From Bradymonas sediminis (GTDB taxonomy: Bacteria; Myxococcota_A; Bradymonadia; Bradymonadales; Bradymonadaceae): a stretch of DNA of 64,000 bases. A program made the translations under genes and the position numbers. The DNA lies in the NCBI RefSeq assembly GCF_003258315.1, contig NZ_CP030032.1, positions 4,819,501 through 4,883,500 on the forward strand, in the 5' to 3' direction. Numbering within the stretch: position 1 is the first letter of the stretch; each line of letters begins with the position of its first letter. The notes beneath the pieces are model-generated. The model searched no databases. It was not told where the DNA came from and saw only the letters and a list, made by a program, of their open reading frames with translations. This document shows positions 53,650 to 62,300 of this stretch, piece by piece.

Positions 53650-56082
53650 ATGTCTATTCGACGCATTCAGGCCGGTGATTTTCGCAAATTGACGTCATTG
53701 GCGGGGTTGTGCCTGCTCGTGCTGAGCGGCTGCGGCGATTGCAGCGGCGAGGGCTCGGGCGGTGGTTCGAACCCGGGGCGCGATGTGACCTCGGATGTCG
53801 GGGATATCGGAGAGGACCTCGATAGCGGGCCGGGCGAGGATGTCGACACGAAGCAGGAGGCCGACGGCGATGGGGCGGACGGGCGTACGGATGCTTCGGA
53901 CGTGAGCGAGTGTGCGCCCGAGAATCAATGCGCTGAGTCTTGCTGTGGTAGCGATGAGTTGTGCCTGCGCGACCAATGCGTCCTGCCGGGGAGTGACTGC
54001 GCGCATAACCTGGATTGCGCGTCGGACGAGATTTGCGAGCCCTCGATTGGTCGCTGTATTTCAGACCCGGGCGTGGTCTGCGAGATTGTGCCCGAGATCG
54101 ATGCCTTTGACCCGCGGATGACCCTGGCCTGGACCGACGGCCCCGACACGGTGGCGCCGAATTTCAACCAGGTGATGATGACCCCCGCGGTGATCGATAT
54201 CAACGAAGACGGAATGCCGGATATCGTGTTTTCGACCTTCGCGGGCGGAAATTATGCGGGCCCCGCGGTGCTGCGCGCGATCGACGGCAATACCTACGAG
54301 CCGATCTTTGATCTCGACGCGCCTGAGAAGGCCGTTTCGGGTTCGGCGTCGGTGGCGGTGGGGGATGTCGACGGGGATGCGCGCAACGAGATTATCGCGA
54401 TGCTGCCGAGCACCGCGGCGGGGACCTTCGGGTTGATCGCGTTTGATGACCACCTGACGGATTGGGCGGTGAAGTGGCGCGCCGAGTGGCCGGCGCCGGT
54501 GGGCGTGGAGATGGGCGTGGACCGCTATTATACCGGCCCGGCGCTCGCCGATCTGAACGCCGACGGCAGCGTCGAGGTGGTCGTGAGTAACCGGGTTTAT
54601 AACGCCGAAACCGGAGACCTCCTGTGCGTCGCGACTGAGCTGGACCCGGGGCCGCTGAATACAACGGTCGCCGATCTCAACGGCGATGGCAATTTGGAGG
54701 TTATCGCGGCGACTGGCGCGTTCACCTTCGCGTATAACGCGTCGACCGACGCCTATGAGTGCGAGACCTATTGGCAATATGAAAATGACGGTTATGGGTT
54801 CCCGGCGGTGGGTGATTTCGGGACCTTCACCGACGGTCAGATGCGGTTTGGCGAGCTCGACGGGATTCCGGAGGTCGTGAGCGTGGCGGGCCGAGATTCG
54901 ACCGATCAGGTGCGGCTGAGCAATGGCCAGGACGGAACGACCATCTGGACCGCGACGATCCCCAATCAGGATCATCCGCACTTCTCGGATGCGCAATGCG
55001 TCCGCAGGCAGGGCGGCGCGCCCACCATCGCGGACTTTAACGGCGACGGCGCGCCCGAGATCGGCACCGCCGGCGCGTGTTTTTACGCGGTATTTGACGG
55101 GGAGGGCGAGCTGCTGTGGAAAGATCCCTCTCAGGATTTCTCAAGCGCGGTGACCGGCTCGAGCGTCTTTGACTTCGAAGGCGACGGGAAGGCCGAGGTT
55201 GTCTACGCCGATGAGTGTTTTCTGCGCGTCTACGACGGGACGACCGGTGAGGTTCTGTTCAAGCGCTCGCACACCTCGGCGACCACGCGCGAATTGCCCG
55301 TGATCGTCGACGTGAATAATAACTATCACGCCGAGATTGTGCTTATCGCGAACGATTATTCGGCCGGGACGACCAATAATTGTCAGAATAATTGGGGCGA
55401 AGAATTCGACGCCCTGGGTGGATCATCCCACGGGATCATCGTCATCGATGACCCGGAGAAAAAGTGGGTGTCGACGCGGCCGGTGTGGAATCAATATACC
55501 TATCATGTGACCAATGTGTGTGACGGGCTGGCGCAGTCGACCTGCCCGGGGCGCACGAATGTGGTCGGCGCGATTCCGATCGGGGAGCTTCCGAATTGGA
55601 AGCAGCCGGGGCTCAATAACTTCCGCCAGAACGTTCAGGGCGAGGGGCTATTTAACGCGCCGGACCTGGCGGTGACCAATATTGCGACCGATTGCAACGC
55701 GACCGAAGGGTTGGGCTTTCGGATCACCGTCTCGAACCTCGGCACGCGCGGCGTGCCCGAAGGGGCCGAGGTTGCGGTCTACGTGAGCGTCGACGGCACG
55801 GAGCAATATCTGACAACGCTGACCACGACCGAGCGCCTACTCCCGGGTGGGGCGCAGACGATTGAGTATATCTGGGCGGATGGGCCGGACCCGGGCGGCA
55901 AGCTCATCACGGTCCGCGCGATCGCGGATGCGAATGAGGCCGGTGAGGGGCAATATCCGGAGTGCATCGAGGATAATAACGAGCTGATCAATGAGGCGAG
56001 TTGTATATGTCGCGAGAATCGGGACTGCTCTCCCGGTGAGTTCTGCGCCAGCAGCGGCGAATGCTTGCCGATGGATGGCTGA
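53650..56082 (+). CDS. FG-GAP/VCBS-repeat and CARDB lipoprotein
   Basis: An 810-residue lipoprotein. The signal peptide ends in VLSGC, followed by a Gly/Ser stretch and an acidic Asp/Glu linker to about residue 90. A Cys-rich module (ESCCGSDELCLRDQC) comes next. The centre (about 170-560) has at least five FG-GAP-type calcium repeats: DINEDGMPD, DVDGDARNE, DLNADGSVE, DLNGDGNLE and DFNGDGAPE, each followed by a beta strand, which should fold as a propeller. At about 675-780 a CARDB-like domain (PDLAVTNIATDC...TVSNLGTRGVPEG) appears, and a final Cys-rich tail with CRENRDCSPGEFC closes it. It is likely an adhesive surface protein. It ends before a bidirectional terminator shared with recN. Confidence 0.87.
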   Translation: MSIRRIQAGDFRKLTSLAGLCLLVLSGCGDCSGEGSGGGSNPGRDVTSDVGDIGEDLDSGPGEDVDTKQEADGDGADGRTDASDVSECAPENQCAESCCGSDELCLRDQCVLPGSDCAHNLDCASDEICEPSIGRCISDPGVVCEIVPEIDAFDPRMTLAWTDGPDTVAPNFNQVMMTPAVIDINEDGMPDIVFSTFAGGNYAGPAVLRAIDGNTYEPIFDLDAPEKAVSGSASVAVGDVDGDARNEIIAMLPSTAAGTFGLIAFDDHLTDWAVKWRAEWPAPVGVEMGVDRYYTGPALADLNADGSVEVVVSNRVYNAETGDLLCVATELDPGPLNTTVADLNGDGNLEVIAATGAFTFAYNASTDAYECETYWQYENDGYGFPAVGDFGTFTDGQMRFGELDGIPEVVSVAGRDSTDQVRLSNGQDGTTIWTATIPNQDHPHFSDAQCVRRQGGAPTIADFNGDGAPEIGTAGACFYAVFDGEGELLWKDPSQDFSSAVTGSSVFDFEGDGKAEVVYADECFLRVYDGTTGEVLFKRSHTSATTRELPVIVDVNNNYHAEIVLIANDYSAGTTNNCQNNWGEEFDALGGSSHGIIVIDDPEKKWVSTRPVWNQYTYHVTNVCDGLAQSTCPGRTNVVGAIPIGELPNWKQPGLNNFRQNVQGEGLFNAPDLAVTNIATDCNATEGLGFRITVSNLGTRGVPEGAEVAVYVSVDGTEQYLTTLTTTERLLPGGAQTIEYIWADGPDPGGKLITVRAIADANEAGEGQYPECIEDNNELINEASCICRENRDCSPGEFCASSGECLPMDG

Positions 56083-58106: not shown

Positions 58107-60002
58107 TTAGAAGGGCTCGGGCAACCAGATCACGAAGCCATTTTCGAGCAAAGCGGCCATGCTATCGATGTCGATCGCGTCGACCCAGTCACAGCGCGGC
58201 TGCCCGCTCTCGATGGCGTCGAAGATCTTCGCCTCTTCGACGTCGACGAGCATCAAGCGAAGCTCGCCGCGCAGGAAGATCCGACCCAGCTCAACGTCTT
58301 CATCTTGCTCGGCAAGTTGCGGATCGCCGGTGATCGCGGCGGCGATATCGGCCGGGAATCGCTGCCGGGTCAAAGTCTCGTTTAGGCGCACTGTGCCGGG
58401 GCGAATGGCGAGCTCATCGAAGCTATTAGGGATGGACGCGAATAGCTCGGCGACGCGATCTTCGCGAGGCGCCCGCGTCGCCCATGCCTCAAATTTGGCG
58501 AGCTCAGCGGCGAATTGTTCATCGGCGTCCAGGGTCCCCGCGGCGGCTTCGGCGGCCAGATAGTCGGCGAAGCGCTCGGCCAGGCGCCCGTGGGCGCGGA
58601 AGGGCTCGGAGAGGGCGAATTTCTGGGCGTGTTGGTCGAGGCCATGGTCGCCCAGGATGTCGGCGGCGGAGGGCAGCGCGTCGCGCAGGCCGGTATGCAA
58701 TTGGGCGAGGCCGGCGTGGGCGAATTGCTCGGGCTCCCACCATTGGTAGCCCAGGGCGGCGACGCTGTTCGCGATCTCGTCGGGGAAATGCCCCTGCACA
58801 CGCTCAAATGCCTGCAATAGATCGCGCAAAACGTCGTTGCTATAGTCGGCGATCTTGGCGTCGGTGAGCATATGGTGCACGTGGTGAGCGGCTTGCTCAA
58901 GCGCCGGGGTGAGGTGTGCTTCGACCGCGTCGAGGCCGGCCGAGTTTTCGGCGAGCCAACCCATCGCGACATAGATGCGGTAGGCGAGGTCCTGGATGGC
59001 GCGGCGGGCGCGCAGCGTTTTATAGCGCTCCAGGTCGACCCCGATATCGCCGCCGAGCAGGCGTCGGGTGGTGTCCTTGAGGTGCGTCATATAGCGGCCG
59101 AGGGAGCTATAATAGTCGAGGTCGTCGGTCAAAAAGAGCTCCGCCCACGCCCCGAAGCTCCAGGCGGTCATGCGATTCCAATGGCTTCGCATATAGCCGA
59201 TGGCGTCGCTCGACGAGTCGAGCTTATACCCCTCGATCGGGTGCAAATCGCCGCTTTGGATCTCGGCCATGCAGGCGTTCCATTCGCGCTCGAAATGGGC
59301 GATGCCGCGCTCGGCCCAGGTCAGCGCCTGCGCGCGCTGGGTGGCGCGCCACTCGGGCGTGGTCTCCCAATAGGGCTTGGCCGCGGCCTCGCATTCGCCG
59401 CAATACTCCTGATAGAGCTGCTCGCCGCGGTGCTCCGGGCAGCGCGGTCGGTAGATCTCGTCGAAGCTATACCAGTGAACCACCGGCAATAATTCGTTGA
59501 TGCGCGAGCCAACATACATCTCGAAGCGGGTCATCTGGGGGTGCCAGAAGAACTTCATCGACCCGTGGATCAGCTCGTGCGGGCGCCATTTGCGGCGGTG
59601 ATTCGGGTTGAACGCGGGGAATGGGGTGTCCAAGAAGAATGAGAAATATTTGGGTTCTTCGAGGATGCCCTGGTTCCACACGGGCACGGTGCCGGCTTCC
59701 CAGACGGCGATCTCGGGGGCCTGGTCCTCGGGCATCGCCACGCGCTCGCGCAACTCATGGTGATAAAACGCGCGTCCCTCTTCTGCCGCCTGCAGCGCTG
59801 CGCGCGCCGACAGCGCGGTGACCGTCATGTCGAGCTTGGGCGCGCCCATTTCCTCGAAGACCGACTCGACCCCGGCGGGCTCTCCGGCGGCGGCGAGCGC
59901 CTCGCAGGCGTCGACGATCGCCTCGGCGTCGGGGAGCCACTGGCGCACATCCGCCTCTTGGGAGTCGTGGGCGGGGAGGTCTGGAAAAGATAATTTGCTC
60001 AT
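58107..60002 (-). CDS. Large protein of unknown family with HExxH and a Cys/His cluster
   Basis: A 631-residue soluble protein with no signal peptide. At residues 142-146 is a HELIH motif inside RPHELIHGSMKFFWHP, the zinc pattern of gluzincin-type metallopeptidases. Shortly after, Cys188, His191, Cys201 and Cys204 (in CPEHRGEQLYQEYCGECE) could form a structural zinc site. The remaining 400 residues are helical and rich in Ala, Leu and Glu, with conserved-looking Trp and Tyr residues, for example YMRSHWNRMTAWSFGAWAEL. I cannot place it in a family; a metal-dependent hydrolase or a modifying enzyme is possible. It stands between recN and a lipoprotein gene on the same strand, 72 bases from the latter. 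Confidence 0.72.
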   Translation of the reverse strand: MSKLSFPDLPAHDSQEADVRQWLPDAEAIVDACEALAAAGEPAGVESVFEEMGAPKLDMTVTALSARAALQAAEEGRAFYHHELRERVAMPEDQAPEIAVWEAGTVPVWNQGILEEPKYFSFFLDTPFPAFNPNHRRKWRPHELIHGSMKFFWHPQMTRFEMYVGSRINELLPVVHWYSFDEIYRPRCPEHRGEQLYQEYCGECEAAAKPYWETTPEWRATQRAQALTWAERGIAHFEREWNACMAEIQSGDLHPIEGYKLDSSSDAIGYMRSHWNRMTAWSFGAWAELFLTDDLDYYSSLGRYMTHLKDTTRRLLGGDIGVDLERYKTLRARRAIQDLAYRIYVAMGWLAENSAGLDAVEAHLTPALEQAAHHVHHMLTDAKIADYSNDVLRDLLQAFERVQGHFPDEIANSVAALGYQWWEPEQFAHAGLAQLHTGLRDALPSAADILGDHGLDQHAQKFALSEPFRAHGRLAERFADYLAAEAAAGTLDADEQFAAELAKFEAWATRAPREDRVAELFASIPNSFDELAIRPGTVRLNETLTRQRFPADIAAAITGDPQLAEQDEDVELGRIFLRGELRLMLVDVEEAKIFDAIESGQPRCDWVDAIDIDSMAALLENGFVIWLPEPF

Positions 60003-60074: not shown

Positions 60075-61241
60075 TTACTCGCGGCGCTCGACCCGAAGGA
60101 TGGATTCGTGCGTGCCTTCACTGGTAATCCAGAGGGCGCGGCCGCTGCGGTCATAACCCAGGGCCTCGGCCTGGGGCAAAAACGGAAGCGCGGCGCGGGT
60201 GGGTGAAAGACTAAACACATCTTCGAAATTGTCCTGCAAATCTTGCTCCGAGCCGGTGTCGGCTGCGCAATAGGTATAGGATTCAAGGTAAGTGCGCACC
60301 GTAAATTCGCGCCCATCCGGGGAAATATCTCCGGCGGTGATCATCGCCACCAGGTTGCTGCGCCCTTCGAGGAAGAGGCTCGCGATCTCGACCGCCCGCG
60401 CGGGGTTCTCCGGCAAGGAGTCCTCACGCGGGACGCGAAATACCGGGGCGTTTGAGGTGCCATTTTTTTCGACCAGATAGATCGCGGTGGTCTGAGGGTG
60501 AACCATCAGGGTTTCGACGTCGCGCGGACCCTCGGGGTAGTCGAGCCATAATGCCTCAATCTCGTTGACCTCAATGGTGATTGTTTCTTGAGGGTTCTCA
60601 GGGGGTTGGAGGTGCTCCGCGGGGAGGGGCGGCTCGGGGAATCGGTAGATGACGACGACGTCGCGCTGTCGAAGGTTATCCCCGGTGTCGGCAACGTAGA
60701 CGCAGGACTTTGGCGAGCCGACGGCGCAGGGGGCGACGGCGATGTCTTCGAAGTCGATGGCGTTTTCGACGCCTTTTAGAAGGACTTCGGCCGCCAGGGC
60801 GCCGTCGGTGCGGATTAAAAATACGCGCGCGCTGTCCCCGGAGTCATTATGCGTCCATAAAAAGTCGTCATAAGCCCAGCTCGCCGCCAGCCCGGAGGCC
60901 TCATTGATCTCGGCCGAGGCGAGGCTGCCGGTCCGGGTCTTTTTGGTATAGGGGGCGCAAAATTGCGGAGCGTCCTCGGCGTCCTCGGCGTCATTGGTGT
61001 CGTCCGCCAGGTCGGAGTCCTGTGATTCGGAGCTGGTGTCGCGTGCGCTCGCGTCCTTGGCCGCGTCCGCCGAAGATGTATCGCCGGTGCTGATGTCGTT
61101 GGGCGTCGTATAAACGTCGTCGCTGCGGGTCACGACGCGCTCGGCGCAGGAGGTTAATGCCAGCGCGGCCGCGACGCCCCCGATCGCCAAAAGAACCAGG
61201 GATGGGGCCAGACCTGCGCGATACCACCGATGATTGGCCAT
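60075..61241 (-). CDS. Asp-rich-linker lipoprotein with beta-propeller-like domain
   Basis: A 388-residue lipoprotein. A long hydrophobic signal segment ends in LTSC. A Ser/Asp/Ala/Thr linker of about 60 residues follows. The mature domain (from about residue 100) reads like a blade-type beta-propeller: EASGLAASWAYDDFLWTHND, IDFEDIAVAPC, SCVYVADTGDN (a phytase-like D-T-G-D-N turn), VVVIYRFPEP, VETLMVHPQTTAIYLVEK and ALGYDRSGRALWITSEG. Two Cys pairs may form disulfides. It has no catalytic set I can confirm. It lies directly upstream of the HExxH gene on the same strand. Probably a secreted, lipid-anchored sensor or hydrolase. Confidence 0.78.
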   Translation of the reverse strand: MANHRWYRAGLAPSLVLLAIGGVAAALALTSCAERVVTRSDDVYTTPNDISTGDTSSADAAKDASARDTSSESQDSDLADDTNDAEDAEDAPQFCAPYTKKTRTGSLASAEINEASGLAASWAYDDFLWTHNDSGDSARVFLIRTDGALAAEVLLKGVENAIDFEDIAVAPCAVGSPKSCVYVADTGDNLRQRDVVVIYRFPEPPLPAEHLQPPENPQETITIEVNEIEALWLDYPEGPRDVETLMVHPQTTAIYLVEKNGTSNAPVFRVPREDSLPENPARAVEIASLFLEGRSNLVAMITAGDISPDGREFTVRTYLESYTYCAADTGSEQDLQDNFEDVFSLSPTRAALPFLPQAEALGYDRSGRALWITSEGTHESILRVERRE

Positions 61242-61490: not shown

Positions 61491-62300
61491 GTGAGCGACG
61501 ATACCCCCAAACCCAACTCAGACCCATTCGCGGAGGCGCGCGCCTCGTTATGGGGGACGCCTGAGGAGGTTCGGATGGCCGAGGACGCGCCGCCGGTGGC
61601 CCTGTCGGAGTCGGACTCGCAGTCGTTGGGGCTCGACCTGCTCTTTGATCTGCACGCGATGGTCGGCGAGCTTGAGCAGACCGAGGGCATCGTGAACGTG
61701 ACCTCCACGATTCACCCGCCGGTGCCGCTGTTCACGATCCACACCATTGAGCATGGGCTGGGAATCCGGGTGCCGGCGCGCATTCGCTCCTTTTATATGC
61801 TCTGCGATGGCCTGGAGTTTTCGTGGAGCTACGAGAAGGATTCTGAGATCATCCCGGGCGGCGGCGCGCACCTCTTTGATTTCGCCACGGTCTTTGATTC
61901 CTGGCTGGATTCGCTGTGGCTCAGCGAGGCGGGGATGAGCGAGGAGCAATGCGACTTTATGTGGACATTGCGCGGGTTTGACCGCACCTTCAACGCCGAT
62001 TCGGCCGTCAAAACCCCGGGCCCCGACGCGCTTGACGAGCGCGAGATGGTTGTCATGTGCGTCGAGGAAGAGTATCCGACATACGATCTATTCGTGCATG
62101 ATCCGAAGACCCGGTCTTCGCGATTGCTCGACGTATCTTTTCGAGAGTATTTTGACTGTCTGCTCGCCACGCGCGGGACCTATGGATGGCAGAATTTATT
62201 GTTGGAAGATAGAGAGCCGCGTCAGGGTGAACTCGAGGGGTTTTATCAGGTCGCTGAGCGATTCTTTCCGCCATCTGATTTGAATCGATGGCGGCGCTGA
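61491..62300 (+). CDS. SMI1/KNR4 (SUKH)-like protein
   Basis: A 269-residue soluble protein. The GTG at 61491 has GGAG at good spacing. After a low-complexity start of about 50 residues comes a region that resembles SMI1/KNR4-type domains: FTIHTIEHGLGIRVPARIRS, FYMLCDGLEFSWSYE, and then DLFVHDPKTRSSRLLDVSF with FREYFDCLLATRGTYGWQNL. SUKH proteins are often immunity partners of contact-dependent toxins, but no toxin gene is adjacent; solitary family members also occur. It stands in a 249-base divergent arrangement with the propeller-like lipoprotein. Confidence 0.72.
   Translation: MSDDTPKPNSDPFAEARASLWGTPEEVRMAEDAPPVALSESDSQSLGLDLLFDLHAMVGELEQTEGIVNVTSTIHPPVPLFTIHTIEHGLGIRVPARIRSFYMLCDGLEFSWSYEKDSEIIPGGGAHLFDFATVFDSWLDSLWLSEAGMSEEQCDFMWTLRGFDRTFNADSAVKTPGPDALDEREMVVMCVEEEYPTYDLFVHDPKTRSSRLLDVSFREYFDCLLATRGTYGWQNLLLEDREPRQGELEGFYQVAERFFPPSDLNRWRR

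Follow-up and report, generated by a model that had tools for sequence, protein, structure and literature searches.

The window, a 64,000-nucleotide stretch of the Bradymonas sediminis genome (contig NZ_CP030032.1, positions 4,819,501 to 4,883,500), encodes a 631-residue protein, P0001, in which a mostly helical N-terminal domain bearing an HExxH motif is followed by a C-terminal third that profile comparison links remotely to HvfC/NGO1945 (DUF2063 plus an RRE, the RiPP-recognition element). P0001 probably processes peptides, as an enzyme of a type that has yet to be described, and we give about an even chance to the more specific reading that it is an orphan peptide-processing metalloenzyme of the Myxococcota, guided by its RRE and acting through gluzincin-type hydrolysis. 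The gene and its domains are arranged as follows.

58107..60002, minus strand: whole gene for the 631-residue protein, defined by the open reading frame and its homologues.
58737..60002, minus strand: N-terminal, mostly helical HExxH domain of no known family, residues 1-422 (AF2 pLDDT 89.3, pTM 0.90).
58110..58733, minus strand: C-terminal HvfC/NGO1945-like (PME-type) region, residues 424-631 (hhalign 93.5%; distant members 98.2%).
58119..58397, minus strand: RRE-like part, residues ~536-628, strands and then three helices (secondary structure; VIA with residues 498-631).

The reading frame starts with ATG, and the length, the two motifs and the residue numbers given in a first-pass annotation of this DNA all stand, to which the strand has now been added. 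A homologue is present in 39 of the 57 genomes of close relatives and in 54 of the 188 that sample the Myxococcota at large, whilst a more distant profile has matches in 107 of 377 genomes, five of which (G093, G120, G257, G271 and G316) match in the C-terminal region only. The gene is so widespread in the phylum that it represents a true gene family. A scan of genome contigs with alignment A1 (18 of 20 loci, the fragments L011 and L012 being omitted) recovered relatives in 25 of 79 contigs, which are labelled Lujinxingia (including L031, Lujinxingia vulgaris), Myxococcota, Myxococcales and Deltaproteobacteria or are unspecific; the same scan with P0001 alone found relatives in 0 of 12, and among viral contigs 0 of 20 pattern stretches encode one. 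The contig search patterns are narrow, and the figures for the spread of the family are those of the Myxococcota sampling. P0001 has no family match in Pfam, PHROGs, PADLOC or, up to E 10, NCBIfam, Pfam searches with 18 close members gave chance matches of single members only, and sequence searches of the PDB likewise returned chance matches, with none for alignment A3.

The AF2 model is confident both over the whole protein (pLDDT 92.4) and over the N-terminal domain by itself. Foldseek gave nothing below E 0.94 with the whole model, and with the N-terminal domain nothing below E 1.2 against the PDB or below E 1.3 against a viral library; the best VIA match of the domain (Z 6.2) is to a designed helical barrel. 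No zincin stands among the Foldseek or VIA matches listed for the domain, an absence that is not evidence of a differing fold. Two candidate relationships were rejected at the profile level, that to the aKG-HExxH enzymes (TIGR04267), where comparison with 19 mod_HExxH domains gave 0.4%, and that to the haem-oxygenase-like family PF14518, where it gave 0.3% and the ligand spacing differs (E40..H50..E103..H133xxxD137xxH140, unlike the P0001 family). The first-pass annotation had described a large helical domain matching no family: this holds for the N-terminal two thirds, which are mostly helical in the AF2 model and match nothing in Pfam, NCBIfam or the PDB, but it had missed that the last ~200 residues are related to HvfC and NGO1945.

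What, then, is the C-terminal third? The role known for HvfC-type partner proteins is to help MNIO iron enzymes. In a comparison by hhalign with an alignment of HvfC-like proteins from the phylum (A6, 25 of 30 loci), the C-termini of eight distant members reach 98.2%, those of the clade to which the window's own protein belongs 93.5%, and the full-length alignment 87.5% with the match lying in its C-terminal part, set against 0.3, 2.7 and 0.3% for unrelated control alignments. The distant set (A7) comprises eight of the 12 distant members, without the four that lack the Cys/His cluster described below, so that the value of 98.2% speaks for that branch only. The reference alignment is truly NGO1945-like, since its profile finds NGO1945 (3dee) at E 2e-14; a PDB sequence search with A7 gave chance matches and did not reach 3dee. 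Scanned singly, 2 of 10 distant members match the HvfC model NF050145 (2.6e-4 and 6.7e-4) and 2 of 13 match NGO1945_C (best 9.3e-4), and the family profile also reaches stand-alone HvfC-like proteins, for instance L191 at 3.1e-13, a locus that itself matches NF050145 at 4.1e-10. The curated cut-off of NF050145 (142) is not reached by these members (best 20.9 bits), nor by any of the 188 Myxococcota genomes. P0001 by itself reaches neither the HvfC nor the NGO1945_C model in Pfam and NCBIfam, and the link is therefore a remote one. The region nevertheless aligns collinearly with the greater part of the HvfC profile, with profile similarity over both DUF2063 and the RRE, as in PME-type 1 proteins, and with an RRE-like end in which the AF2 model places strands at 570-577 and 580-585 ahead of three helices; the difference is that here it is joined, as the C-terminal part, to an HExxH domain.

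Structural comparison is consistent with this assignment. The top VIA match of the whole model is TglI (8hi7; Z 7.8, 215 residues aligned, rmsd 6.2), and for residues 498-631 there are matches to the C-terminal ends of NovN, GdmN and NO66 (Z 4.9-6.0); all of these Z values lie below 8, a range that the tool calls a common arrangement, so the TglI match proves nothing alone and serves as support only. TglI is the partner of TglH; it has no HExxH domain and works with an MNIO. Judging by their PDB titles, NovN and GdmN are of the carbamoyltransferase kind and NO66 of the JmjC kind. A 2025 survey reports fusions of RREs with carbamoyltransferases as well as with JmjC proteins (PMC12710340). Under the name PME, proteins composed of DUF2063 and an RRE are described in two papers as partners of MNIO enzymes, with leader-peptide binding and tuning of the iron site as their presumed role (PMC12452194; PMC13419390).

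In the P0001 family the module appears to have a different client. The family occurs independently of MNIOs: across 39 genomes, 11 have both, 17 the family only, 3 an MNIO only and 8 neither (Fisher p 0.71), so that 17 of the 28 family-positive genomes lack an MNIO (PF05114), as does the genome of the window. The C-terminal module is thus not serving an MNIO here, for which reason it is called PME-like rather than an MNIO partner, and it is most simply read as serving its own fusion partner, the HExxH domain. The window's genome also has no stand-alone HvfC relative and no DUF2282 bufferin precursor, the latter being present in 3 of 55 relatives. Within 2.5 kb of the gene no conserved small precursor ORF was found across 37 loci; the small-ORF families that recur over many loci appear, by eye from position and sequence and unscored, to be the focal gene read in other frames. 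Clustering of neighbouring genes, which were called by an in-house greedy procedure that overlooked the focal gene in 7 of the 44 regions, gave no broadly shared family, the largest clusters after the focal gene covering at most 7 loci each (cluster 3, gyrase-like by eye, has 5). This absence of a conserved neighbour or precursor sets the loci apart from the RiPP clusters usually seen, and it is the main weakness of reading the family as part of a RiPP system.

Immediately upstream, 72 bases away, lies a gene for a 388-residue lipoprotein-like product (60075-61241, minus strand; no Pfam match), a possible operon partner in the window's genome that is not conserved upstream in relatives, and downstream is a RecN-like gene. 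Elsewhere, the window encodes an 810-residue lipoprotein-like protein (53650-56082, plus strand) that contains FG-GAP repeats as well as a CARDB-like stretch, and a 269-residue protein without a Pfam match up to E 0.01 (61491-62300, plus strand). One homologue has as its neighbour an 886-residue protein (L029:7201-9861, minus strand) with a Cys-rich start and near-identical tandem units of ~100 residues (SYNIGGSVLLNGETPRIIG...). Domains of the aKG-HExxH type (TIGR04267) are common in the phylum, in 56 of 188 genomes and some with 2-3 copies (e.g. G139, G177).

Residue conservation was followed in 60 non-redundant, full or near-full main-family homologues from Myxococcota, a set that excludes duplicates, entries shorter than 400 residues and L190/L191. 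It singles out the following features, all on the minus strand.

59565..59579, minus strand: HExxH motif (HELIH), residues 142-146, on predicted helix 139-149.
59493..59495, minus strand: E170, candidate for the third metal ligand, within the following helix (159-178), in 60/60 and in both paralogues.
59391..59441, minus strand: C188-H191-C201-C204 cluster (CPEH-x9-CGEC, residues 188-204), putative structural zinc site, in 54/60 with one clade lacking it.
59646..59651, minus strand: K118-Y119, near-invariant pair (60/60 and 59/60), lost along with E143 in methyltransferase-fused paralogues.
59172..59207, minus strand: D266-Y270-H274-R277, one face of helix 263-278, candidate substrate or catalytic residues (60, 59, 58 and 60 of 60).
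58977..58991, minus strand: D338 and R342, invariant helix face (each 60/60).

An HExxH motif arises in 8.0% of 20,000 shuffles of P0001, so that on its own it says little, and it is accepted as real because it is conserved: H142 and H146 are present in all 60 homologues and E143 in 59, the exception being an alanine in L189. Loss of these residues in homologues had been named at the outset as what would tell against a metal site, and the proposal that the motif marks such a site rather than chance has instead been strengthened. The second histidine after the motif, which had been offered as further support, does not behave in this way, for H154 differs among relatives and H176 is kept in only 29 of 60. 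A search downstream of HELIH for the third ligand likewise yields no conserved nearby histidine, but it does yield the invariant E170, which on conservation is the best candidate, in the arrangement HExxH-x23-E; E240, D266, H274 and D338 are others. The AF2 model places HExxH and E170 on consecutive helices.

The family thus carries the gluzincin-type combination of HExxH with a conserved downstream Glu, and its spacing is that of the M2 alignment built here (H353..E377, x23), that of M3 and M32 being x25. The likeness to these helical gluzincins lies in the HExxH-x(23-25)-E spacing; the difference is that neither sequence similarity nor a fold match to them was detected, with hhalign giving 0.2% for the N-terminal domain against M2, 0.1% against M3 and 0.5% against M32, where the same method, which gives no more than 2.4% for M2-M3 and 14% for M32-M3, could miss a remote kinship. 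Of the alignments, A8 held 19 of 20 loci, A9 10 of 15, A10 13 of 15, and A11 and A12 9 of 12 each.

The Cys/His cluster, also flagged in the first-pass annotation as a putative metal site, behaves as a conserved metal site; its four residues are either all present or, in six homologues, all absent. Those six form a single clade with full support in the tree, which points to one event rather than six. The pattern CxxH-x(5-20)-CxxC arises in 0.005% of 20,000 shuffles of P0001, and the cluster is probably a structural zinc site that is dispensable, which the all-or-none distribution fits. Beyond the features listed above, R85, W139 and R167 are invariant, E240 is present in 59 of 60, and the two homologues without H274 have Asn in its place.

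These observations can be assembled into a mechanism. The C-terminal DUF2063-plus-RRE module would bind a peptide or protein tail and deliver it to the N-terminal helical domain, where H142, H146 and E170 would hold one metal ion, E143 would act as the general base, and K118/Y119, D266, H274, R277, D338 and R342 would line the pocket, with the Cys/His cluster as structural zinc. The most likely reaction would be gluzincin-type hydrolysis of a peptide substrate encoded elsewhere. Hydrolysis is favoured over oxidation because the third ligand would be a Glu and E143 is conserved.

Oxidation keeps real weight all the same, since an HExxH protein in a peptide-maturation setting can be an iron oxygenase. 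PMC12636437 describes an HExxH protein, first annotated as a metallopeptidase, that turned out to hydroxylate a RiPP precursor in an aKG-dependent manner, and other aKG-HExxH enzymes that lie beside MNIO fusions, one of which also cleaves backbones. The N-terminal domain would then be an iron oxygenase, hydroxylating a peptide or cleaving it oxidatively, and would work in the manner of the aKG-HExxH enzymes ChlH, BpmH, PflC and PosC while belonging to another family; HvfC-type partners serve iron enzymes (PMC13419390), and the invariant arginines R85, R167, R277 and R342 could bind a keto acid. With the aKG-HExxH enzymes (TIGR04267/IPR026337) P0001 shares the motif and the peptide-maturation context, a possible functional analogy, but the profile comparison stands at 0.4% and the third conserved residue there is a histidine (H110 in alignment A8), where the P0001 family has E170. 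The window's own genome contains no aKG-HExxH (TIGR04267) domain. On this evidence we consider an oxygenase unlikely, though less so than the two readings that follow.

A side branch bears on whether the family is catalytic at all. Two paralogues, L186 (914 residues; L186:4073-6817, plus strand) with HGxxH and L187 (an 865-residue open frame ended by the contig edge; L187:2-2596, minus strand) with HSxxH, form one clade in the tree; L186 ends in a methyltransferase domain (PF13649, 2.4e-6), and L187 resembles it by eye in this fusion. Both retain H142, H146, R167, E170, E240, H274, R277, D338 and R342, and both are without E143, K118 and Y119. The branch suggests a separation of a metal-holding set of residues from a catalytic set, in which K118 and Y119 may work with E143, since they are lost together with it. 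Each of the two genes adjoins a similar gene for MPG(F/Y)TLPL... proteins, by eye and of unassigned function.

Such losses, together with that in L189, whose HAxxH keeps both histidines and E170 without E143, count against the hydrolytic reading. They could instead point to a protein whose role is non-catalytic or regulatory, with a binding module for, say, DNA or protein joined to a scaffold that metal stabilises, and both the first proposal for NGO1945 as DNA-binding (PMC2954202) and the small-ORF scan of 37 loci, with no precursor nearby, would agree. Yet E143 persists in 59 of 60 main-family members, and the accompanying loss of K118/Y119 in the paralogues fits catalysis in the main family, which makes a purely non-catalytic role quite improbable. 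Least probable of all is a dinuclear iron enzyme of helical fold, of the haem-oxygenase-like type or one akin to it, in which HExxH would supply ligands to a two-metal site along with E170, E240, D266, H274 and D338: the model is mostly helical, and three histidines (H142, H146, H274) and five carboxylates (E143, E170, E240, D266, D338) are near-invariant and lie on helices, but PF14518 compares at 0.3% with another ligand pattern and H274 is Asn in 2 of 60.

A more far-reaching reading we offer tentatively and rate at rather less than an even chance. P0001 may represent a class of metalloenzyme, new to science, that modifies or cleaves peptides: an unrelated HExxH domain would have captured an HvfC-type recognition module and taken the place of the MNIO, and the enzyme would act in trans, its target being either an unlinked peptide or a housekeeping protein, with the methyltransferase-fused branch reusing the metal pocket without the catalytic Glu. 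The titles and abstract openings consulted, which cover the literature in part, contain no description of a DUF2063/RRE module joined in one protein to an HExxH domain. If true, the HvfC-type module would be a more general peptide-delivery unit, found in a widespread, phylum-level family and in genomes without an MNIO, and RiPP genome mining would gain a new enzyme to seek, one without a linked precursor. The P0001 family would also offer a clean test of what an HExxH motif means, hydrolysis or oxidation.
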